From Peptococcaceae bacterium BRH_c4b (GTDB taxonomy: Bacteria; Bacillota; Desulfotomaculia; Desulfotomaculales; Desulfocucumaceae): 64,000 nucleotides of DNA. The notes beneath the pieces were generated by a model that saw only the letters and a program-made list of their open reading frames with translations, had not been told where the DNA came from and did not search any database. The DNA is taken from assembly GCA_000961595.1 (NCBI GenBank), contig LADO01000061.1, forward strand, positions 1 to 64,000. Reading direction: 5' to 3'. Both the position numbers and the translations under genes were made by a program. Of the stretch, positions 20,803-32,354 are shown piece after piece (position 1 is the stretch's first letter; each line of letters opens with the position of its first letter).

Positions 20803-21312
20803 TTAACCCCAGTAGGCGGTCACCGGAACGGCAAGCCCCTTTGACATTTGCACGTCTATAATGCGCTGGTTGGCAGAGCCCCTGAACGGAAGCTTCAAAT
20901 CCTTCAATTCTTCCACGAAGGGTCCATCCACCAGATAATCCGTAACCTCCAGCAATTCCCCGAAACGCCTGTGGTCATCAGGGTGTTCCAGCAGGTATTC
21001 CCAGGTGTAACCGGTGTAGCTGATTACATCCTTCCCCATTAATCGTACCTGCCTGGCCAGCCTGGCCAGAGGCACGGCCTGCTCAAAGGGCTCCCCCCCT
21101 GAAAGGGTGACGCCTTTGAGCAGTGGATTGGCGGCTACCTGCCTGAACAAATCGTCAATATTCACCATTCTGCCCCCACCGGGCATCCAGGTGTGAGGAT
21201 TGTGGCAGCCCTTGCAGCGGTGCGGGCAGCCCTGGGTAAAGATTACGAAGCGAATCCCCGGTCCGTCCACTACGCTTTCCGCAACCGTACCGGCTATTTC
21301 TACAAAATCCAT
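20803..21312 (-). CDS. nrdG: Anaerobic ribonucleotide reductase activating protein
   Basis: A 169-residue radical-SAM activase that installs the glycyl radical in NrdD. The Fe-S motif is TQGCPHRCKGCHNPHTW, in the CxxxCxxC spacing typical of this group, and GVTLSGGEPFEQ is the SAM-contact GGE motif. It lies 18 bases downstream of nrdD and they are certainly co-transcribed. Confidence 0.95.
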   Translation of the reverse strand: MDFVEIAGTVAESVVDGPGIRFVIFTQGCPHRCKGCHNPHTWMPGGGRMVNIDDLFRQVAANPLLKGVTLSGGEPFEQAVPLARLARQVRLMGKDVISYTGYTWEYLLEHPDDHRRFGELLEVTDYLVDGPFVEELKDLKLPFRGSANQRIIDVQMSKGLAVPVTAYWG

Positions 21313-21330
21313 ACTATCACATCCAATTAT

Positions 21331-24300
21331 TTAACAGCTCTGCCCCTCAAAACCGCAATTCTTTGGCGGCAGGGCTGGTGACAGATGAAAAGATTGTATC
21401 CCATGGGTTATCCGGTCATTCAATTCCGACACCTTGCTGTCGTTAAAGCGGTCCACCGTGCTGAGGTATCCGGTTATCCGCCTTACCCTGCTGATAGCCG
21501 TAGAGCCGCAGGAGGGGCAGTCGTCCTGGTTGATTACCCCCGCCATGCTGCAGGAAGTGCAGAAGTCCACCGGGAAATTAACCGCCGCATAGCCCATATC
21601 GCTGGCAGCCATATGCCGCACGATGGCCTCCATGGCCTCGGTGTTGTTTAGCGGCGGCGCCGCCATCTCCACATAGCTTATGTGCCCGGCGTTACAGTAT
21701 TTGTGATAGGGGCCTTCCAGGCTTATTTTGTCAAAGGAATTGATTATATAGTCAACCGGTATATGGAAAGAATTGGTATAATAGTCCTTGTTGGTTACCC
21801 CCGGGATAATACCGAATTCCTTCCGGTCTAGCTTTACAAAGCGGCCGCTCAGTCCCTCCGCCGGAGTAGCCAGCAGGGTGTAATTGAGATTATATTCCTC
21901 GCATGCCTCATCTATCTTTTTACGCAAAAAGGCTATTATTTCCTGCCCCAGAGCCTGGGATTCCTCACTCTGGCCGTGGTGCCTGCCGGTCAGGGCGGTG
22001 AGGACCTCGGCCAGCCCGATAAAGCCTACCGAAAGAGTACCGTGGACGATTATATCCTCAATGGGGTCATCGGGCTTCAATTCTTCGGAGCCCATGTAGA
22101 GTCCCTGCCCCATTACGAAGGGCATATCCTTTACCTTCAACTTGCCCTGTACCTTGAAGCGGTGGTAGAGCTGGCGTATGGCGAGGTCCAAGGTGCCGGT
22201 AAGCCTCCGGTAAAAATCATCCAGGTTGCGCTCGGCCTTGATCCCCAAACGGGGCAGGTTGATGGTGGTAAAGGAAAGGTTGCCCCGCCCGTCGGTGACC
22301 ACCGGGCCCCGGCGGTTGGCCATCACCCTGGTGCGGCAGCCCATGTATGCCACCTGGTCGCCGTATGCGGCGTTAAAGCTGGAATCCATAAAGCTGAAAG
22401 TAGGATTGAGCCGCTTGGCGGCCACCTTTACGGCCAGTTGAAGCAAATCATAATTGGGATCGCCGGGGTCCTGGTTGACCCCCTTCTTAACCTTGAAAAT
22501 AATATTGGGGAAGATGGGGTTTTCCCCCCTGCCCAGTCCGGCATCATAGGCCAGCAGCAGGTTGCGCACCACCCTGCGGGCAGACTCGGAAGTCTCGGTG
22601 CCGACATTTATAGAAGAAAAAGGGACTTGTGCCCCGGCCCTGCTATGCATAGAATTTAGGTTGTATATAAGGGCCTCCATGGCCTGATAGGTTTCAAAAT
22701 CATCGGCATCCTCCACGAAGGGCGCCATGTCCCTGTCGAAGAAGGCAAAGGACTGCCCCCCGTGCATGTCGTTTTGGGAACTCTGCAGTATTATGGCAGC
22801 CAGGGCCGTGGCCGAGGTGGGCCGTTTGGGCGGCCTGATATGGCCGTGGCCGGTATTAAACCCCTCGCTGAGCAGCCGTCCCAAAGGAATCTGAACACAG
22901 TTATGAACGACATAATCATTTACTGTAAACCAGTGTTCGGCCGTTTCCAAGTCGAACACATAACGATTATAACCAGTCACCTCATCCACTGCCACAACAT
23001 CCTGGGGATCCAGATTCCTTCCCGGAACAGCGAAGGCGTATGTCGAGGTTTGAGTAGTGTCCTTTGCTGAAGAAACTATATTCAAGAAATTCTTCATGCT
23101 TGCAGTATCCATAATGTGTACTACAAAGGTATCGTAATTTCTTGTCGTAACGATGTTTCCATTAACTGCTACACCAGTACCCCTTGTTTCCCGGCGGTAT
23201 AATGTTGCCTCCACTCCTACGCCTTGCAGGAGCAGCACCAGTTTCTTAGCCAGTTCTTCTGATACTGTACAATAAGTAATCCTTTTTTCACCGTAATGAC
23301 CATCACCATCAAAAAGCCCCTGCAGGAAATGAGCCTTTAATTCTTTTGGAGCATTAAAAACAAAGTCAGGTATATCAATGATGCCTGCATTTACTTTTAC
23401 GCCCAGTACATTCTGCAACAGGGCCACATAGACTGAGCCGTTTAGCGATCTGCCCTTTTGTTTATTCTTTAGACTGCTTGTGTACATAACTGTAGTCTGA
23501 TCATTAAACAAGGTTCTCACACAATGTTCGATATCCGCTTGAATATCCGGGTTCTCATTGATGATGGCGATGGAACGGCTTGATGTAGCAACATTAATAT
23601 GCCCTTCCGCGAGAATATACCCTAATAATCTCATTAATTCCGGTACAATGGGCAGGTAGGCAGGCAAGCTTTTAGATCCCTTGGCCGTAGTTACCGTCAG
23701 TTGCTGCTTAACCTCATAAGGGATGTAATAAGTTTCAGCCAGCCTGGCATACTCGTCTCCGCTTAGTGAATTTCCTCCCTTGGAGCTTTGCTTGGTACCA
23801 ACGGTTAATTTGAATTTAAAATCGTCATATTTATATCTTAACCAGTGAATTAATTTCTGCGCGTTTCTTATGGTTATCCCATGGGGAATTTTATCCCGCC
23901 GGGCAACAAATAAATCCAAAACGGGTAATTCCAAAGATTCTTCAAACTCCTGGCAACTGGTCAATAAGCGATCTCCACTGGCAATGTCCTTCACTTGGAC
24001 AAGAAATTCGTTACCAGCCCGCAACACAGGAACTTTATGCTCTCCTGTTAAATGCAAAGGCAACCCTTTTCTGGTCTTGATCCGGTATAAACACTCACCT
24101 TGCCGCAGCTCTCTGCGCATCACTTTATTAATTTTTGTCCAGCCGGTGCGTCCGAGAATCTGATATCCGTCCAGGTCCAGTACTTCCGCCTCTTCTATAA
24201 AATTAACGGCTTCATGATTACCTTCAACTAACGAATTGAAAAAATCGAATTTAACTCTTTTTACTTCACCCTGTCTATCACGAATCATAGTGTATTCAAA

Positions 24301-24822
24301 ATCGGGCACGCAAGTCAATGTTTTTCCGTAGAAGTCTAAATCATGTATGTGCATATCGCCACGCAGGTGGGCCAGGGACATTTCCTCGGGAATTAGCCTG
24401 GTCAGGTAGAATTTTTTGCTGGCCGCGCTGGCAATTTGCAGCATTTTAGCCGAGGGGGAATTGCTGATGTTGGCATTTTCGCGGTTGGTTTCCTCCAGTA
24501 TTTCCTCCACCGCATCCATCAGGTCACCCTTGGCGTCCCGGATACGGGTGCGTTTATCCCGGTGAAGGATGTAGGCCTTGGCAGTACGGGCATGACCCGC
24601 CTCAATCAGCACCTTTTCCACCACATCCTGTACTTCCTCGACTCCGAAAACATTGCCATTGTATAGCTTTTTCAATATTTTCAGTACTTCGATGGTGAGT
24701 TCCATGGCCGTCTGCCGGTCTTCCCCACCTACTGCCCGGGCAGCCTCAAAAATGGCATCGGTAATTTTGGATTCGTCGAAGGATACTTCGCGTCCGTCTC
24801 TTTTTTTGATAACCTTAAACAA
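21331..24822 (-). CDS. nrdD: Anaerobic ribonucleoside-triphosphate reductase, intein-containing
   Basis: 1163 codons: a reductase of about 692 residues interrupted by a 471-residue intein. The N-terminal ATP-cone (residues 1-95) regulates activity. The catalytic core resumes after the intein with CVQIPLGRLLSEGFNTGHGH, in line with the TLTC active-site segment preceding it. Near the C-terminus are a zinc-binding set CTSC/CPSC and the glycyl-radical loop RRITGYLSTVDRFND. It reduces NTPs to dNTPs without oxygen. nrdR is upstream and nrdG downstream. Confidence 0.97.
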   Translation of the reverse strand: MFKVIKKRDGREVSFDESKITDAIFEAARAVGGEDRQTAMELTIEVLKILKKLYNGNVFGVEEVQDVVEKVLIEAGHARTAKAYILHRDKRTRIRDAKGDLMDAVEEILEETNRENANISNSPSAKMLQIASAASKKFYLTRLIPEEMSLAHLRGDMHIHDLDFYGKTLTCVPDFEYTMIRDRQGEVKRVKFDFFNSLVEGNHEAVNFIEEAEVLDLDGYQILGRTGWTKINKVMRRELRQGECLYRIKTRKGLPLHLTGEHKVPVLRAGNEFLVQVKDIASGDRLLTSCQEFEESLELPVLDLFVARRDKIPHGITIRNAQKLIHWLRYKYDDFKFKLTVGTKQSSKGGNSLSGDEYARLAETYYIPYEVKQQLTVTTAKGSKSLPAYLPIVPELMRLLGYILAEGHINVATSSRSIAIINENPDIQADIEHCVRTLFNDQTTVMYTSSLKNKQKGRSLNGSVYVALLQNVLGVKVNAGIIDIPDFVFNAPKELKAHFLQGLFDGDGHYGEKRITYCTVSEELAKKLVLLLQGVGVEATLYRRETRGTGVAVNGNIVTTRNYDTFVVHIMDTASMKNFLNIVSSAKDTTQTSTYAFAVPGRNLDPQDVVAVDEVTGYNRYVFDLETAEHWFTVNDYVVHNCVQIPLGRLLSEGFNTGHGHIRPPKRPTSATALAAIILQSSQNDMHGGQSFAFFDRDMAPFVEDADDFETYQAMEALIYNLNSMHSRAGAQVPFSSINVGTETSESARRVVRNLLLAYDAGLGRGENPIFPNIIFKVKKGVNQDPGDPNYDLLQLAVKVAAKRLNPTFSFMDSSFNAAYGDQVAYMGCRTRVMANRRGPVVTDGRGNLSFTTINLPRLGIKAERNLDDFYRRLTGTLDLAIRQLYHRFKVQGKLKVKDMPFVMGQGLYMGSEELKPDDPIEDIIVHGTLSVGFIGLAEVLTALTGRHHGQSEESQALGQEIIAFLRKKIDEACEEYNLNYTLLATPAEGLSGRFVKLDRKEFGIIPGVTNKDYYTNSFHIPVDYIINSFDKISLEGPYHKYCNAGHISYVEMAAPPLNNTEAMEAIVRHMAASDMGYAAVNFPVDFCTSCSMAGVINQDDCPSCGSTAISRVRRITGYLSTVDRFNDSKVSELNDRITHGIQSFHLSPALPPKNCGFEGQSC
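22900..24312 (-). other. Intein in NrdD with LAGLIDADG homing endonuclease
   Basis: Residues 171-641 of the precursor. The first intein residue is Cys171 (TLT|CVPDFEY) and the last two are His-Asn (YVVHN|C), followed by Cys642 of the extein. Splicing block B is GLPLHLTGEHKVPVL. Two LAGLIDADG-type helices are visible, LLGYILAEGH (about 399-408) and FLQGLFDGDGHY (about 499-510), so the endonuclease looks intact. Removing it restores TLT-CVQIPLG, the normal NrdD active-site sequence. Both splice junction cysteines are present. Confidence 0.95.
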
Positions 24823-24882: not shown

Positions 24883-25356
24883 CTATTCTTCCTTTTCCTC
24901 GACCCCGACGCCCATAAGCTTCTCTATTTCCCGCACAAAACTGCGGGCATCGTGAAATTCCCGGTAGACCGAGGCAAAGCGTACATAAGCCACCTCATCC
25001 AGGCCGCGCAGTAATTCCATAACCAGTTCGCCTATATCCCTGCTGTCCACCTCGGTTTCAGTCGTTTCCCTCAACCGGCGCTCTATTTTGCTTGCCGCCG
25101 CGTCCATTTCATCCATGGATATGGGGCGTTTCTGACAGGCTTTGGCAAAGCCTGTCAAAAGCTTCTGCCGGTCAAACAGCTCCCTCCGCCCGTCCTTTTT
25201 AACCACCATCAGCGGAAGCTCGTCCAGCCGCTCATAGGTGGTAAACCTCCTGGAGCATTTGGCGCATTCCCTTCTGCGACGTATGGAACTCCCGTCCCCC
25301 GCAGGCCTGGAATCCAGCACCTTCGTATCGCTAAACCCACAAAAAGGGCATTTCAC
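24883..25356 (-). CDS. nrdR: Transcriptional repressor NrdR
   Basis: 157 residues. The zinc ribbon is CPFCGFSDTKVLDSRP and CAKCSRRFTTYER, followed by an ATP-cone (VVKKDGRRELFDRQKLLTGF). NrdR binds NrdR boxes upstream of ribonucleotide reductase genes depending on bound nucleotide. The start GTG at 25356, KCPFCGF immediately after it, matches the family. Codons upstream to 25398 lack homology. I found no clear NrdR box pair upstream of nrdD. Confidence 0.95.
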   Translation of the reverse strand: MKCPFCGFSDTKVLDSRPAGDGSSIRRRRECAKCSRRFTTYERLDELPLMVVKKDGRRELFDRQKLLTGFAKACQKRPISMDEMDAAASKIERRLRETTETEVDSRDIGELVMELLRGLDEVAYVRFASVYREFHDARSFVREIEKLMGVGVEEKEE

Positions 25357-25460
25357 AAAGGCAGCACCCCTTAACAAAAACATAATATAGTATCTCAAGC
25401 AACTATATTATACAACATATTGGGGTTAGGTAAGAAATCGGAAAAACCTGCTAAAAAATG

Positions 25461-25547: not shown

Positions 25548-25847
25548 CTACCAGTATTTGTCGCTAACATAATAGCCGGGGGCTGACCCTTCCCGCCCGC
25601 CATCCTGAGCCGGCCTTAAATCCACCAGTATTACATCAACGCCTATGCGTACAATCCTGTCCCACGGCACCACAATTTCATCTTCCCGGCCGAAAAAACC
25701 CATCAGCCTACCTCCCTGGCCAGGTAGAATAATGGCCGTAATTTTCCCCTCCTCCATGTTTATGTCTATGTCTTTTATGGGCCCCAGCCTCCTGCCGTCA
25801 CCTATATTAATAACTTCCCTCATCCTGAGGTCCGAAATCTTCACCAT
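25548..25847 (-). CDS. ylmC: YlmC/YmxH family PRC-barrel sporulation-linked protein
   Basis: 99 residues. A PRC-barrel core with SDLRMREVINIGDGRRLG, IKDIDINMEEGKITAIILPG and IVRIGVDVILVD matches YlmC/YmxH. Family members occur in endospore formers and are annotated as sporulation proteins without a defined activity. It lies between spoIIR and nrdR. Confidence 0.93.
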   Translation of the reverse strand: MVKISDLRMREVINIGDGRRLGPIKDIDINMEEGKITAIILPGQGGRLMGFFGREDEIVVPWDRIVRIGVDVILVDLRPAQDGGREGSAPGYYVSDKYW

Positions 25848-26064: not shown

Positions 26065-26847
26065 TTATCCAAAAAATTTATTAAACCAGTGACGGGAATC
26101 CTGATACAGTTCCACCAGTTTAAAACGGAATTTTACTCGCTGCATCTCTTTCGAAGCCTCTGCCGGGACATCAGCGGGCAATTCCATATCCTGTGGAATG
26201 TAGCAGTCAGTAGCTGCCACGGGCAGAGCACCAACCTCACCACCCGCCTCAGCGCCGGAATCCGGCCGGGTTGCGTCCCCTTGCCCGGTGTGCGACTCCT
26301 TTTCTGTCCCGTCAACTTGACCGGCCCTATCAGCGGTGTTCCCGGTAATGCTGGCAGGGTTTACAAAGCAGAGGGGCGGGAACAACACGCACCACCAGTT
26401 GGCCCCCCTGCCCTGACCGATAATCACCCGCACAGCCTCGTATTCCCCGGCAGGAAGGGTTAGTTCCCCACCACTGTTAATATGATAGGTTCTATCCGGA
26501 AACTGGTAATTCCCCATACACACAGCTACGGGATACGCATAGCCCTGCCCGGCGATAACCCGGCCAGCCGCCTCTTTAATGTCCCCCTGGTGCTCCAAAA
26601 CAATTTTCCTGGCCTGCTCTTTATTCTTTACTTCCGAGAGGTAAGGGGTCATGATGCGTACCACCTCATCCCTTACCATGTATTTTAACGCCTGGTCCAA
26701 CGGATTGTTGCTGTTGGCAATAATGTGCAGACGTATATAATTATCCCTGTTTATGCCCTTATGGCCTGAAAGGTACCAAAACCATCCGGCGCCTGCGGAT
26801 ATTGCTGTTAGTATTGCGATCAAGACGACTATTGCCTTTTTCTTCAT
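26065..26847 (-). CDS. spoIIR: Stage II sporulation protein R
   Basis: 260 residues. One N-terminal transmembrane or signal segment (AIVVLIAILTAISAG) is followed by the SpoIIR core: YIRLHIIANSNNPLDQALKYMVRDEVV, CMGNYQFPDRTY, LPAGEYEAVRVIIGQGRGANWWCVLFPPLCF. SpoIIR is made in the forespore and secreted to trigger SpoIIGA cleavage of pro-sigma-E. The segment after residue 170 is a less conserved linker. A sigma-F-type promoter precedes it, as in Bacillus. Confidence 0.94.
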   Translation of the reverse strand: MKKKAIVVLIAILTAISAGAGWFWYLSGHKGINRDNYIRLHIIANSNNPLDQALKYMVRDEVVRIMTPYLSEVKNKEQARKIVLEHQGDIKEAAGRVIAGQGYAYPVAVCMGNYQFPDRTYHINSGGELTLPAGEYEAVRVIIGQGRGANWWCVLFPPLCFVNPASITGNTADRAGQVDGTEKESHTGQGDATRPDSGAEAGGEVGALPVAATDCYIPQDMELPADVPAEASKEMQRVKFRFKLVELYQDSRHWFNKFFG

Positions 26848-26879
26848 AAACTGGTTCCCCTTTTATTTAACTGGATAGT

Positions 26880-26911
26880 TAAATTCTGACCGCAATAACC
26901 GTTATTTATAC
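26880..26911 (-). promoter_or_regulatory. Possible sigma-F promoter of spoIIR
   Basis: Minus strand GTATA, a 15-base spacer, then GGTCAGAATT; matches the sigma-F pattern GYWTA-N15/16-GGNRANANTW with one mismatch, 33 bases upstream of the start codon. SpoIIR is a sigma-F product in Bacillus. Confidence 0.65.
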
Positions 26912-27011
26912 ATATTTGCTTAAATTTTATGTATGATGCCTATCAATCAGCGTCGCGTAGCTCATGAGCAAGGCTCAAGATCACCGCGCCTACCAAAGAT
27001 AGATAATGAAC

Positions 27012-27049
27012 ATAAAAATTCCCGGGGCGGATTTTACCGGCCCGGGAAT
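27012..27049 (-). terminator. Terminator of sigG
   Basis: ATTCCCGGG/CCCGGGAAT with T-run on the minus strand, 12 bases beyond the sigG stop. Confidence 0.85.
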
Positions 27050-27060
27050 CAGGAAGGTTA

Positions 27061-27834
27061 TCATAAATATTTACGCATGTGGCTTAAGGCAGCCTTTTCC
27101 AGCCTGGAGACCTGAGCCTGGGATATACCTATCTCATCGGCTACCTCCATCTGGGTTTTCCCCTCATAAAAACGCAGGGACAGAATGTGCTTCTCTCTAT
27201 CGCTTAATTTTCGCAGGGCGTCCCGGATGGCGATGCCCTCCAGCCAGTTGTGATCGTGGTTCTTTTCATCGCTGATCTGGTCCATCACAAATATAGGATC
27301 GCCGCCGTCATGATATATCGGCTCAAATAGCGATATCGGCTCCTGTATGGCATCCAGGGCAAAGACTATTTCCTCCCTGGGCATTTTTAGTTCCCGGGCA
27401 ATTTCATTAATGGAAGGCTCCCGGGAATGTTTATTCACCAGGGTATCCCTAACCTGGAGCGCCTTGTAAGCCACATCCCGCAGTGAGCGGCTGACCCGGA
27501 TGGGATTGTTGTCCCTGAGATAGCGACGTATTTCACCTATAATCATGGGCACGGCATAGGTGGAAAATTTGACGTTCTGGGACAGATCAAAATTGTCTAT
27601 AGCCTTCATTAGCCCGATGCAACCCACCTGAAACAAGTCATCAACGTATTCTCCCCGGTTGGTAAAGCGCTGGATAACGCTCAGCACCAGGCGAAGGTTG
27701 CCGTTAATCAGCTTGCTCCGGGCGTTTTCATCGCCTTTATGCATGGCTTCAAAGAGGGAGCGCATCTGTGCCCCTGTTAATACCGGGAGTTTTGACGTAT
27801 TAACACCACAGATTTCCACCTTGTTGACCAGCAT
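27061..27834 (-). CDS. sigG: RNA polymerase sporulation sigma factor SigG
   Basis: 257 residues with the sigma-70 family regions 2, 3 and 4. The N-terminus, VEICGVNTSKLPVLTGAQM, is a sigma-G hallmark. Region 2 has DDLFQVGCIGLMKAIDNFD and KFSTYAVPMIIGEIRRYLRD. Region 4 ends with GISQAQVSRLEKAALSHMRKYL. It directs late forespore transcription, including SASP genes. Its own sigma-F-type promoter lies between it and the sigE terminator. Confidence 0.97.
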   Translation of the reverse strand: MLVNKVEICGVNTSKLPVLTGAQMRSLFEAMHKGDENARSKLINGNLRLVLSVIQRFTNRGEYVDDLFQVGCIGLMKAIDNFDLSQNVKFSTYAVPMIIGEIRRYLRDNNPIRVSRSLRDVAYKALQVRDTLVNKHSREPSINEIARELKMPREEIVFALDAIQEPISLFEPIYHDGGDPIFVMDQISDEKNHDHNWLEGIAIRDALRKLSDREKHILSLRFYEGKTQMEVADEIGISQAQVSRLEKAALSHMRKYL

Positions 27835-27880
27835 AGATGACTCCCACCTCTTTTCGATATATGAAACTAACTTTCAGTCC

Positions 27881-27911
27881 TCATTATTGCCTTCACCCGT
27901 TGCCTTTATAC
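27881..27911 (-). promoter_or_regulatory. Possible sigma-F promoter of sigG
   Basis: GTATA, 15 bases, then GGCAATAATG on the minus strand, one base short of a full match to the sigma-F consensus and with the same spacing as the spoIIR promoter. Lies 47 bases upstream of the sigG start and immediately after the sigE terminator. Confidence 0.7.
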
Positions 27912-27917
27912 ATTTCA

Positions 27918-27969
27918 TAAAAACCAAAACCCCTGCCGGGTACCGCAGAGCACGGCGCCGGCAGGGGTT
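27918..27969 (-). terminator. Terminator of sigE
   Basis: AACCCCTGCCGG/CCGGCAGGGGTT, a long GC-rich stem with TTTTGGTTTTT on the minus strand, 23 bases beyond the sigE stop. It isolates sigG from spoIIGA-sigE. Confidence 0.88.
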
Positions 27970-27991
27970 CACCTTATATATATACGCACCG

Positions 27992-28717
27992 CTATTCCAT
28001 CCGGTGCATTTCCTTTTTCAGCCTTTTAATTATCCTCTTTTCCAGCCGGGAGATGTACGACTGGGATATGCCCAGTAAATCCGCAACCTCCTTCTGGGTC
28101 TTTTCCGCCCCGTTGTTCAGGCCGAAACGCAGTTCCATTATCTTTCTCTCCCTGCCGTTCAGTTTTTGCAGGGCCAGATACAAAAGCTTTCTATCCACCT
28201 CGTCCTCTATAAATTTATAAATAATATCATTTTCAGTCCCCAGCACATCTGACAACAGCAATTCATTGCCATCCCAGTCTATGTTCAGCGGCTCATCGAA
28301 GGAAACCTCGGTACGGATTTTATTGTTCCTCCTGAGATACATCAAAATTTCATTTTCTATACAACGGGAGGCATAGGTAGCAAGCTTTATTTTTTTGGCC
28401 GGATCAAAGGTGTTGACTGCTTTGATCAGACCTATGGTTCCTATGGAAACAAGGTCTTCGATACCTACCCCGGTATTCTCAAATTTTCTGGCTATGTAGA
28501 CCACCAGCCTGAGGTTTCTTTCAATAAGCACGCTGCGAACTGCCCCGTCCCCGGCTTCCAGCCTGTTAATCAAAAATAGTTCTTCGTCCGTGGAAAGAGG
28601 TGGAGGAAGAGCTTCACTACTTCCCACATAATGCACCTCTGGATATTCACCCAGCCAGTGCATCACTCGAACCACCGTCAGGCGGAACAATAGTTTAATC
28701 TGCCAAATCGCAGGCAA
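27992..28717 (-). CDS. sigE: RNA polymerase sporulation sigma factor SigE (pro-sigma-E)
   Basis: 241 residues. The N-terminal hydrophobic pro-sequence ([17 protein letters not shown]) and the site [16 protein letters not shown] are the pro-sigma-E hallmarks. SpoIIGA would remove about 25-30 residues there. Region 2 has [20 protein letters not shown] and [18 protein letters not shown]. Region 4 ends with [20 protein letters not shown]. It controls early mother-cell genes such as cotE. It is 27 bases from spoIIGA, an operon. Confidence 0.97.
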
Positions 28718-28744
28718 AGTCCACCACCTCCCATTATTTAATAC

Positions 28745-29665
28745 TCAGGCCGCCGGTGCGCTATCGATTAAATCGGGGTGTAACAGGGCGCTGTACTCCC
28801 GCCCGGGGGCCAGGCTGCTGTTGTGGATCGCCAGCACCGTTTGAACAACCCTTTTTATCCCCCGCTCTGATTTGATTTCCAGGCAGTCCGGGCGGATACC
28901 CAGCAACAAGCCCTTGTCAGTTCCCAGGGATTTAAAAGGTATAAGTCTCAGCCGGTTATTCCATGGTGTGTCGGCCATGGCCGATAACACCAGCATACCG
29001 TCGCTGTATAGTTCCACCGCCGCTTTTAGCGGGGCGGGCAATATATCCCTGACCGCAGCATATTCCACCACCATCACGGGTACACCGGAAACGGGATCTG
29101 TAAGACTGTTGCCAGTGTCCACCAGCCCCTCCACCACCACTTTATTACCCCACAGGCAGATGGTCACGGGCAGTTTCAAAGCATCTTTTTTTAGCCTTCT
29201 GCGAACAATAGCAGGCGCCAGCAGGGCAGCCAGGAGCGTGCACAGCACGGCCAGGGTAAAGGCAGGCCACAAATACCGATTTATAATGGTGAGCACATAC
29301 TTTACCCCGGAAAAATAACCGCCCCGGTAAATGAGATAGGAAAACCCAATCACCATGCCACCCAGCAAAAAAGAACCCAAATAAAAGAAACCCAGACAGG
29401 CAATAAACCGCCTGGCGGGAAGCGGAGCATAAGCCAGGCCGACCATAGCCAGAGAAACGGCTATTTTAATAAAAAAATAAAAATACTGCCCCGTGCCGGG
29501 TAAAAACATCAGAACGGCATACAAACTCCCTAACCCCGCTGCGAGCAGTAAACGGACCCAGCCCCCCCTGATCCCGGTCATACGGCCGGCAACCCAAAGA
29601 ATAATATAATTTACAGCCAGGTTACCTATAAATACATTGTCCAGATATACTACGTTTTCGCCCAT
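28745..29665 (-). CDS. spoIIGA: Sigma-E processing peptidase SpoIIGA
   Basis: 306 residues. Five hydrophobic segments in the first half (for example LAVNYIILWVAGRM and AVLMFLPGTGQYFYFFIKI) anchor it in the septum. The C-terminal half is an aspartic-protease-like domain with VEGLVDTGNSLTDPVSG, holding the catalytic aspartate in DTG. Cleaves pro-sigma-E after SpoIIR contact. Directly upstream of sigE. Confidence 0.95.
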   Translation of the reverse strand: MGENVVYLDNVFIGNLAVNYIILWVAGRMTGIRGGWVRLLLAAGLGSLYAVLMFLPGTGQYFYFFIKIAVSLAMVGLAYAPLPARRFIACLGFFYLGSFLLGGMVIGFSYLIYRGGYFSGVKYVLTIINRYLWPAFTLAVLCTLLAALLAPAIVRRRLKKDALKLPVTICLWGNKVVVEGLVDTGNSLTDPVSGVPVMVVEYAAVRDILPAPLKAAVELYSDGMLVLSAMADTPWNNRLRLIPFKSLGTDKGLLLGIRPDCLEIKSERGIKRVVQTVLAIHNSSLAPGREYSALLHPDLIDSAPAA

Positions 29666-29773
29666 TACAGTCTCCTACAATTTGCCGGGGCGGCCGGCAG
29701 CTATAACCCCTGAAACTACGCTACCAGTATATGGCCGCTCTTGTGCAAATATTACATTTTTGTTTATAACATC

Positions 29774-29813
29774 AAAAAAATAAGCCCTGCATCATATTAT
29801 ACAATGCCGGGCT
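29774..29813 (-). terminator. Second hairpin downstream of ftsZ
   Basis: AGCCCTGCAT/ATGCCGGGCT with one mismatch and TTTTTTT on the minus strand. It lies between ftsZ and spoIIGA. Confidence 0.7.
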
Positions 29814-29895
29814 GGAATAATTTGTCATAAACAGTTTGCTGCGGGAGTTTTTCTTTTCGCTTACTTCTATGGAATTATTTGTTCTCCGTAATATA

Positions 29896-29942
29896 AACAC
29901 AAAACCTTTCCGCCTGGCCAGTACTGGCCAACGAAAAGGTTT
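29896..29942 (-). terminator. Terminator hairpin downstream of ftsZ
   Basis: AAACCTTT/AAAGGTTT arms enclose the perfect palindrome TGGCCAGTACTGGCCA. It starts 22 bases past the ftsZ stop. The T-run is interrupted, so strength is moderate. Confidence 0.6.
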
Positions 29943-29963
29943 GGAAAGCGGTGAATTACAGTA

Positions 29964-31019
29964 TTATCTTCTCCGTAAAAAAGCCGGAATGTCCAGTTCG
30001 TCGTGGGTGCTGAAAGGTTTGAGCACATCCGGTTCCTGTTGCTTAACCTTTTCCCTCCTGCCTGTCATCTGGTCAAAGCCTGTGGCGATAACGGTCACCC
30101 TTACCTCGTCTTCCATACGTTCGTCAATCACCGCGCCAAAAATAATATTGGCCTCGGGATCGGCTGCCTGGGAAATAATTTCAGCGGCCTCGTTCACTTC
30201 AAACAACCCCAGGGATGAACCGCCGGTTATATTCAGCAACACTCCTCTGGCACCCTCGATGGAAGTTTCCAGCAGCGGGCTGGATATGGCCAGCCGGGCT
30301 GCCTCAGTAGCCCTGTTTTCACCGCTGGCGCTGCCTATACCCATCAGCGCCGAGCCTGTTTCTTTCATAATTGTTTTTACATCGGCAAAGTCAAGGTTTA
30401 TTAAACCCGGTACCGCGATCAGGTCGGAAATACCCTGCACGCCCTGACGCAGCACATCATCCGCAATGCGAAAGGCTTCAACGATAGAGGTGTGTTTGTC
30501 GATAACCTGCAGCAGCCGGTCATTGGGAATGGTAATCAACGTATCAACCTTCGCTTTAAGGTTCTGGGTCCCGGCCTCGGCCTGGCTCATGCGCTTCCTG
30601 CCCTCAAAGGTAAAAGGTTTGGTAACCACCCCCACGGTCAGGGCGCCCATCTCCTTGGCCACCTCGGCCACCACCGGAGCAGCCCCGGTGCCTGTACCCC
30701 CTCCCATGCCGGCTGTCACAAAGACCATATCAGCGCCCTTAAGTGCCTGAATGATATCGTCCCGACTCTCTTCCGCCGCTTTTTGACCAATATCCGGGTT
30801 GGCGCCGGCTCCCAATCCTTTGGTGAGCTTGGTTCCAATTTGAATTTTAGTTCCGGTCTGGGAGAGTTGCAGGGCCTGGGCATCGGTATTTACTGAAATA
30901 AACTCGACACCTTTCAGGCCGGCACTTATCATTCTGTTCACAGCATTGTTACCGCCGCCCCCCACACCAATCACCTTTATATTAGCAAGCGGTTCCTGGT
31001 CGAGTTCAAATTCAAGCAT
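29964..31019 (-). CDS. ftsZ: Cell division protein FtsZ
   Basis: 351 residues. The tubulin-like GTPase begins with [18 protein letters not shown] and has the GTP-binding glycine loop [29 protein letters not shown] and the T7 loop [11 protein letters not shown]. The conserved C-terminal peptide [11 protein letters not shown] binds FtsA and SepF. The ATG at 31019 follows GAAGGAGGATATTTA. An ATG 10 codons earlier is ignored because the site lies between them. It is preceded by ftsA. Confidence 0.98.
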
Positions 31020-31049
31020 TAAATATCCTCCTTCGCAGCTTATCCGCAC

Positions 31050-32258
31050 TTATTTTTGTCTGGTAGCCTCGAAAAACTTTATTAAACTTTTCCACATGCC
31101 TCTACGTCCTTTATTATAGGTACGGAATTCATCTTTGCCATAATTTTGCAGCAATCCCACAGCCGCAGTACAACTGCAGTCCTCCGCAGACTTATCCGTC
31201 ATGCCGGGTGTCCTGCTGCTCGCTATCCTCACGGGCATACCAAGGTATTCCGCAGCATATTCATCGAGCCCCTTTAAAGCGGCTCCGCCGCCCGTCAACA
31301 CCAGTCCTCCGGGGAGGACCAAATCAGCAGCCATGCTTTCCACCGCCGCCCTAACCAGATCTAGAACCTCACAAACCCTGGCCTCAATGATCTCTCTGGC
31401 AAATTGGCATTTTATCTCATGGGTGCCGGTATTACTAATCCCCGGCACCTCAAAAGTATCATGGTCAGTCGTACCCAGTCCTGCTTGAATTTTAATTTGC
31501 CCGGCTGCCTCCAGGGTGGTTCTCATCCCCACCGCCAAATCGCCGGTGATATGCTCCCCGCCAACTGGTAGAAGTCTAAACCCCAGCTGGGTGCCATAAT
31601 TGTATACGGCTACCCCGGTGGATACTGCGCCCAGGTCGACCAGTGCTGTTCCCAGTTGCATTTCGGTACTTTTCAGGACCTCTCCGGCAGCTGCCAGAGT
31701 GGACGGGATAAAACTCCGGGGTTGCAGCGATAACCTTTGTAAAACGCCGGTCAGTAAATCTATCAGTTTGCTGTCGACAGTGAGCAGTCCGGCTGTTAAC
31801 TCCAGGCTCTTAAATTTCATGCCCAGAGGTGTCTTTACTACACAGGCAGAGTCAACGGTGTATTCAAAGGGTATAACCTTAAGGATTTGGCGTCCGGAAG
31901 GAATATCTTCAATGGCCACAAGGCGCTGCAGCCTGTCAAGATCGGATTGATTTACCCTGCGGGCACTGCCCGACGTAAACCGGGCCGAAACGGGGTTTAA
32001 TTCGGCAGTATAGCCCGTGAAACCAACCCTAACGGCTGAAACCTTCAATCCTGCGGCTCTTTCTGCTTTTTCAAGGGCTTCTCCTATGCAGTTGGCAAGA
32101 CCATCAGGGTCAGTAATATCACCCCTGCGCATGCCTATAGTAGGACATGAGGCAATGGCTGCGGGTATGCAACTGCCGTAATCATGAGCAATGGCCGCAA
32201 CGATACTGCTGTTGCCAACATCAATGCCAGCAGGGATATATTTTCCTTTTTCGGCCAA
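31050..32258 (-). CDS. ftsA: Cell division protein FtsA
   Basis: About 402 residues of the actin/ATPase superfamily. IPAGIDVGNSSIVAAI (phosphate 1) and LVLTGGGAALKGLDEYA (adenosine) are visible, along with the FtsA 1C-type insert and a C-terminal amphipathic helix GMWKSLIKFFEA that targets the membrane. I chose a TTG at 32258 because GGAGG is 9 bases upstream. A GTG at 32267 is another possibility but too close to the site. FtsA tethers FtsZ to the membrane. Confidence 0.95.
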   Translation of the reverse strand: MAEKGKYIPAGIDVGNSSIVAAIAHDYGSCIPAAIASCPTIGMRRGDITDPDGLANCIGEALEKAERAAGLKVSAVRVGFTGYTAELNPVSARFTSGSARRVNQSDLDRLQRLVAIEDIPSGRQILKVIPFEYTVDSACVVKTPLGMKFKSLELTAGLLTVDSKLIDLLTGVLQRLSLQPRSFIPSTLAAAGEVLKSTEMQLGTALVDLGAVSTGVAVYNYGTQLGFRLLPVGGEHITGDLAVGMRTTLEAAGQIKIQAGLGTTDHDTFEVPGISNTGTHEIKCQFAREIIEARVCEVLDLVRAAVESMAADLVLPGGLVLTGGGAALKGLDEYAAEYLGMPVRIASSRTPGMTDKSAEDCSCTAAVGLLQNYGKDEFRTYNKGRRGMWKSLIKFFEATRQK

Positions 32259-32354
32259 GCCAGGCACCCTCCGACCATACTTTACTTAAAATGTAAAGTT
32301 CAACGCCGCCTTGATTTTCCCCTTTTTATATCTTTAATTCAAAGTAATAAAAAA

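Follow-up and report, generated by a model that had tools for sequence, protein, structure and literature searches.

A 64,000-nucleotide stretch of Peptococcaceae bacterium BRH_c4b (contig LADO01000061.1, positions 1 to 64,000; hereafter the window) contains nrdD, the gene for an anaerobic (class III) ribonucleoside-triphosphate reductase. This gene is interrupted at 22900-24312 by an insert that we read, with a probability of about 0.93 and on the strength of its sequence, as an intein that splices in cis and carries a homing endonuclease of the LAGLIDADG type. Relatives of its splicing domain also occur as free-standing genes in another class of the phylum. Here we lean towards the view that the splicing domain of an NrdD intein became a host gene by capture, nrdR and nrdD having been lost behind ylmC in the whole class and the splicing half having been left as a non-splicing gene under purifying selection.

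The first-pass annotation of this DNA had described a 471-residue intein with splice residues and both LAGLIDADG motifs, and this was borne out by an exact in-frame insert and by Pfam matches above the cut-offs. The open reading frame (ORF) of 1163 amino acids (aa) at 21331-24822 runs without a stop, and the host frame is intact on both sides of the insert. Its parts are as follows (a slash marks a splice junction).

21331..24822 (-): nrdD, precursor of the anaerobic (class III) ribonucleoside-triphosphate reductase, 1163 aa, TTG start; NCBIfam PRK07111 equivalog, 1033.5 bits against a cut-off of 764
24313..24822 (-): N-extein of 170 aa, comprising the ATP cone and the beginning of the NrdD domain; last residues GKTLT
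22900..24312 (-): predicted intein, 471 aa (471 codons), from C of TLT/CVPDFEY to N of VVHN/CVQIPLG
24277..24312 (-): block A, CVPDFEYTMIRD, with nucleophile C1
24037..24048 (-): block B TxxH motif TGEH, residues 89-92
23668..23961 (-): region between block B and LAGLIDADG motif 1, residues 118-215, delimited by alignment and not in the mini-intein described below; possibly part of a DNA-recognition module
23596..23628 (-): LAGLIDADG motif 1, LLGYILAEGHI, residues 229-239
23293..23328 (-): LAGLIDADG motif 2, FLQGLFDGDGHY, residues 329-340
22900..22965 (-): C-terminal splicing blocks F/G, RYVFDLETAEHWFTVNDYVVHN, with penultimate His470 and terminal Asn471
22897..22899 (-): codon of the +1 Cys, which is the active-site Cys of NrdD (T4 NrdD Cys79 in the alignment)
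21331..22899 (-): C-extein of 522 aa and the stop codon; it includes the GCR Cys, which aligns with T4 Cys290, and the glycyl-radical motif RITGYL

The host gene is identified as class III NrdD by a profile match above cut-off, the glycyl-radical motif and an adjoining radical-SAM activase gene, and Pfam finds NRDD and ATP cone domains in the exteins. With the insert taken out, the flanks read GKTLT-CVQIPLG, as in intein-free relatives. The comparison with the nearest intein-free NrdD that the annotation had proposed led to G004, a member of the window's genus, which has the same nrdD (91% extein identity) and the uninterrupted sequence GKTLTCVQIPLGRL; other close homologues likewise have no insert. 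The set of splice residues is complete (C1, TGEH, H470-N471 and the +1 C), and both LAGLIDADG motifs retain their acidic residues, with E236, G237 and D335-G338 invariant across six aligned full-length inteins. Searched alone, the intein matches the Pfam families LAGLIDADG_3 (residues 325-400, 59.3 bits, cut-off 22.5) and Intein_splicing (residues 46-471, 41.2 bits, cut-off 35.8). It is also poorer in G+C (42.7%) than the C-extein (55.2%) and the N-extein (50.0%), and third-position G+C is lower in the intein than in the exteins in all seven carriers identified below. A PF14890 search of the BRH_c4b genome, in which the window intein itself scored below cut-off, found no other intein.

In a phmmer alignment, His470, Asn471 and the +1 Cys coincide with residues 77-79 of T4 NrdD, and the +1 nucleophile therefore corresponds to T4 Cys79, a catalytic Cys of the active site. 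The earlier statement that the insertion lies at a highly conserved point of the active site thus agrees with the alignment. The claim that the host enzyme is essential also gained support: the BRH_c4b genome (66 contigs totalling 3.6 Mb, completeness estimated at 100%) gave one NrdD match and no match to either the class I/II large-subunit domain PF02867 (11 of 14 controls positive) or the monomeric class II reductase family TIGR02505 (8 of 14 controls positive). NrdD appears to be the sole ribonucleotide reductase of this anaerobe. Because no other reductase was found, splicing is very probably required for growth, which would favour a working over a broken intein; and because the intein interrupts a catalytic Cys of seemingly the only reductase, splicing and viability can be linked directly. 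Some of these related anaerobes are in culture.

Inteins splice through acyl shifts at Cys1 and the +1 Cys, cyclisation of the terminal Asn and ligation of the exteins. As far as can be read from the sequence, the NrdD precursor would fold, Cys1 and the +1 Cys would drive the acyl shifts, Asn471 would cyclise, and ligation would rebuild the TLT-CVQ strand whose Cys is catalytic. Intein-free nrdD would be the predicted target of the endonuclease, with cleavage at this conserved stretch of codons and the intein then copied in. Lineages could afterwards retain the intein, lose it, or lose the endonuclease alone.

All three states occur at one site of one gene in related anaerobes: empty, full and endonuclease-free. 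In a search of 113 genomes of the class, the whole precursor found a match in 98, weak and partial only in a few cases, and seven have an insert at the same NrdD site. Six of the inserts include the endonuclease (G000, G006, G007, G029, G096 and G097). The seventh, in Pelotomaculum sp. UBA5255 (G087, locus L015, 3001-3507), is a natural mini-intein of 169 aa without the endonuclease but with the splice residues retained, and could serve as a compact splicing tool. Close relatives lack the intein, both in the window's genus (G004) and in the genus of carriers G096 and G097 (G098), and its presence requires five state changes on a 38-row NrdD extein tree; seven of 45 NrdD entries failed the motif filter and fall outside this tree and the extein comparisons (G014 with two copies, G021, G079, G063, G067 and G069). 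This scattered distribution is consistent with homing. In two near pairs, the ratio of nonsynonymous to synonymous substitution rates (dN/dS) was 0.14 and 0.17 for the endonuclease part, 0.18 and 0.16 for the splicing part, and 0.14 and 0.08 for the exteins; because its values resemble those of the splicing part and lie little above those of the exteins, the endonuclease is still under purifying selection.

Several observations weigh against the reading of an active homing intein. Pfam does not see block A, the Intein_splicing match starting only at residue 46, and the AlphaFold model of the full 471-aa intein is poor, with a predicted local distance difference test score (pLDDT) of 55. No near copy of the intein was found in plasmids or in viral contigs, where one weak match (L115) extended over 58 residues. 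The conflict between intein and extein trees is only suggestive: approximately unbiased (AU) tests gave p=0.054 for the host grouping of G000, G006 and G007 on the intein data, and did not reject the alternative grouping on the extein data (p=0.353), so we dropped the conflict as a proof of transfer. Co-conversion of the flanks was considered separately and rejected: a scan in 20-codon windows revealed no donor-like tract, and the first 20 codons past the junction are variable in all eight comparisons.

The unusual block A had been pointed out in the first-pass annotation, and the deviation is real. The typical, though not defining, consensus is CLxxDT, of which CVPDFEY shares only C1, and such a block outside the Pfam match could mark an intein that has decayed and lost splicing, with an inactive NrdD as the result. 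We regard this as very improbable. CVPDFEY is invariant in all six full-length inteins and is CVPDFEF in the mini-intein, and because of this constancy we take the deviation as a trait of the intein lineage rather than as decay; since the defining position 1 is as expected, the mismatch was not counted as excluding the intein class. Purifying selection, the intact frame and the failure to find another reductase speak against degeneration as well. Only a little less improbable is a role as a post-translational switch, in which splicing responsive to redox, temperature or nucleotide state sets the amount of active NrdD. It would fit the interruption of a catalytic Cys in the only reductase found, and a review (PMC7765530) reports conditional splicing for other inteins. 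The scattered presence (7 of 113 genomes) and the relatives G004 and G098, which do without the intein, argue against it. So does the distribution of Cys residues: none stands within 10 residues of the junction on the N-extein side, so a redox switch through an N-extein Cys was rejected, and the only invariant intein Cys besides C1 in the full-length inteins, C264, lies in the endonuclease part and has no counterpart in the mini-intein. The earlier suggestion that the intein gates NrdD maturation is thus left without support.

A weightier alternative, although still an unlikely one, is that the element is now immobile: an intein ancestral to the class, lost many times, whose endonuclease is retained for some other reason. 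Between inteins of different host families, synonymous differences approach or reach saturation (proportion of synonymous differences, pS, 0.68-0.87), so any transfer was not recent, and the AU tests fall short of proving one. On the other side, the endonuclease keeps its motifs and is under selection, and the G000 intein is nearer to those of G096 and G097 in another family, f16 (76-77% identity), than to those of G006 and G007 in its own (67%), whereas its exteins show the reverse (81% and 86%, respectively). The intein with a homing endonuclease remains the reading that we prefer.

Relatives of the intein were found in two phages. The NrdD proteins of Aeromonas phage vB_AceP_PAc (OP718284) and Fusobacterium phage phiKSUM (OR492276) carry inteins at the same site, before the active-site Cys, with junctions SPLTN/C and PQPN/C, respectively; their matches cover 92% of the window intein, including the endonuclease part, at 28-30% identity. 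They differ in residing in phage genomes and in their block A (CIDEEGW and CVDPTTT), and phiKSUM has the remainder of nrdD annotated as additional downstream frames. These two distant relatives were the only ones in the phage records searched. The sole PDB sequence match at E <= 0.001 is the PI-PkoII endonuclease (2cw7; E 6e-15, best stretch residues 219-387), which has another block A, is archaeal and comes from a different host protein. The best match to a curated family is the intein-containing tetraether lipid synthase Tes (NCBIfam NF045703), a different host protein; the match spans intein residues 18-468, and its 89.5 bits are far below the family cut-off of 1700. A putative intein, or an intein trace, in nrdD is also reported for Clostridium phage c-st and Lactococcus phage 949 (PMC3653736), which resemble the present case in the host gene. 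Neither this intein nor the standalone genes were found described in the accessible text of the literature searched (including PMC3653736, PMC2795772, PMC7765530 and PMC5784728), subscription papers and InBase lying outside the search.

A profile built from the six full-length inteins (A1) matched 26 of 398 genomes of the phylum, comprising weak matches to endonuclease parts and, in addition, short ORFs that match the splicing domain only. The latter encode free-standing proteins of about 165-185 residues. Of the 12 genomes of another class, which fall into three families (f79, f88 and f54), 11 have the standalone gene, the exception being G400, which is 77% complete.

Standalone genes: loci L096-L104, L113, L140-L149 and L155; genomes G224, G189, G331, G257, G283, G307, G354, G377, G421, G148 and G441

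The relationship of these genes to the splicing domain of the window intein is well supported by sequence comparison. Aligned with hhalign, the intein family and seven standalone proteins correspond over intein residues 1-119 (probability 99.7, E 5.7e-26), and in a single comparison one standalone protein is 37% identical to the mini-intein (E 3e-34). The standalone profile A3 matches the bacterial NrdD inteins of this same site (site a) at E 1e-30 to 1e-36 and the two phage inteins at 1e-20 and 1e-16. Run against every ORF available, with E up to 10, it matches only these and the standalone proteins, and finds no match in the inteins of NrdD sites b and c or of RecD-, IMPDH- and NrdJ-like genes (names judged by eye), which speaks against a chance resemblance to any intein whatever. 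A profile of ten standalone proteins and the mini-intein, run over the 398 genomes, returned the 11 known genes and the window intein only, the other six site-a carriers being outside that sample. Pfam and NCBIfam gave nothing over a cut-off. The predicted fold lends middling support to a Hint fold: an AlphaFold model of a standalone protein has pLDDT 72 and a predicted template modelling score (pTM) of 0.63, its top Foldseek match is a TFIIB mini-intein (E 1.7e-5, template modelling (TM) score 0.49), and its top VIA match is the RadA intein (Z 8.0, root mean square deviation 4.0, 126 aligned). The claim of kinship is carried by the sequence evidence. In a splicing-domain tree, which is unrooted, has long branches and no starred branch, and is silent on direction, the inteins are split from the standalone proteins with support 92/93. 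Alignments A2-A4 exclude the contig-cut G421, A2 and A3 also exclude G283, and the tree excludes G283, G421 and G441.

The chromosomal setting connects the two groups further. In the window, the genes around nrdD are as follows, sigG and sigE being named from gene order.

20803..21312 (-): nrdG, radical-SAM activase, immediately downstream (Fer4_12, Radical_SAM; gene name by position)
24883..25398 (-): nrdR repressor, immediately upstream
25548..25847 (-): ylmC/ymxH-like PRC-barrel protein, synteny anchor
26065..32267 (-): spoIIR, sigG, sigE, spoIIGA, ftsZ and ftsA, synteny anchors

The order sigE, sigG, (spoIIR), ylmC, nrdR, nrdD holds in the window and in all 20 further NrdD loci that we selected, three of them from outside the class (G281, G147 and G239), and nrdG follows nrdD within the stretch in 13 of the 20. 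In families f79 and f88 of the other class, the same chain runs to ylmC and is then followed by the standalone gene, in all eight loci whose stretch includes ylmC (with about 1 kb between the two genes in L144 and L145); the ninth locus lies 798 bases from a contig end. In the two f54 genomes, the standalone gene stands directly behind ftsZ. An HlyD-like gene comes next in all ten loci that reach that far, with pgeF interposed in three. These neighbours suggest a cell-envelope or division context for the standalone protein. Intein-free nrdD and nrdG are present elsewhere in the genome in G224, G189, G331 and G257; G377 has a partial intein-free nrdD and G441 a distant NrdD only, and in G307, G283, G354, G421 and G148 the standalone gene is the only match. 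No NrdR was found in any of the 12 genomes of this class, several of which are incomplete (9 of 14 controls positive).

The standalone proteins, as they stand, lack the requirements for splicing. Some of them have a more canonical block A, such as CVSEDT and CLPENT. Cys1 is retained in all nine f79/f88 proteins and is lost in both f54 proteins; the block B His is present in six of the nine f79/f88 proteins and replaced by Gln in the remaining three. All ten proteins whose end can be read lack the terminal Asn, and their frames stop within about a dozen residues, so neither the terminal Asn of a functional intein nor a C-extein with a +1 nucleophile is found. Typically, the gene has about 170 codons, starting three codons before the position of Cys1 and ending shortly past that of the splice site. 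The alternative that they are pseudogenes is countered by dN/dS values of 0.18-0.22 in four near pairs, which indicate purifying selection.

A promoter-like sequence of its own precedes the gene in two of the three families: TTGAAA-N17-TATACT (TTGAAT in G189) lies directly upstream of all nine f79/f88 genes, that is, of 9 of the 11 standalone genes, and TATACT is followed by a Shine-Dalgarno-like GGAGG (GGGGG in G224). The pattern was defined post hoc from the inspected sequences; a looser version occurs once in each of the nine f79/f88 stretches, always at this place; both f54 stretches lack it, and the 64-kb window has it once. A candidate small hairpin, CGCCT-GCTGG-AGGCG, lies over the Shine-Dalgarno sequence, exact or nearly so, in the nine f79/f88 loci (e.g., L146, L147 and L155), and could mean translational control.

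For the origin of these genes, we favour a path that began with an intein-bearing nrdD behind ylmC; nrdR and nrdD would then have been lost from that place, with the splicing half remaining as a gene. We infer this direction, from intein to gene, because the intein state is more widespread and includes phages, the splicing residues have been lost, and the chromosomal place is shared. In the reverse scenario, a host Hint gene of this kind would have invaded the neighbouring nrdD; this is less likely because phage NrdDs also have the intein state and the standalone gene was found in one class only. If capture is the right account, a family of proteins without splicing activity, beside division and sporulation genes, would go back to a selfish protein-splicing element, and the domestication of inteins for non-splicing purposes would become a testable question. 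The yeast HO endonuclease, which is linked to inteins, provides a parallel. It is a precedent for a homing-element relative turned free-standing host gene (PMC7282813), but HO is a working endonuclease, whereas the standalone genes have the splicing fold only, without the endonuclease.

Other inteins were seen in the course of this work. A second NrdD site, NSMH/S ... HN/SRAG, is occupied by a different intein starting with Ser in L024 and L080 (G033), L081 (G039), and L079 and L023 (G079), and also in L109, L111 and L112. A third NrdD site is seen in L075 (the second copy of G014): an intein-like insert follows YMG and precedes CRSRVM, at the Cys that corresponds to T4 Cys290 in the alignment, and ends in Gln (HIGQ/C) rather than Asn. 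Genes judged by eye to encode RecD-like helicases contain inteins in L076 (G014), with junctions IHK/C ... HN/CQGSE, and in L077 (G021), where the open frame stops within the insert. Finally, the C-terminus of NrdD in the window (21331-21400) is about 22 residues longer than in relatives, continuing past THG with IQSFHLSPALPPKNCGFEGQSC, and resembles the result of a lost stop codon.

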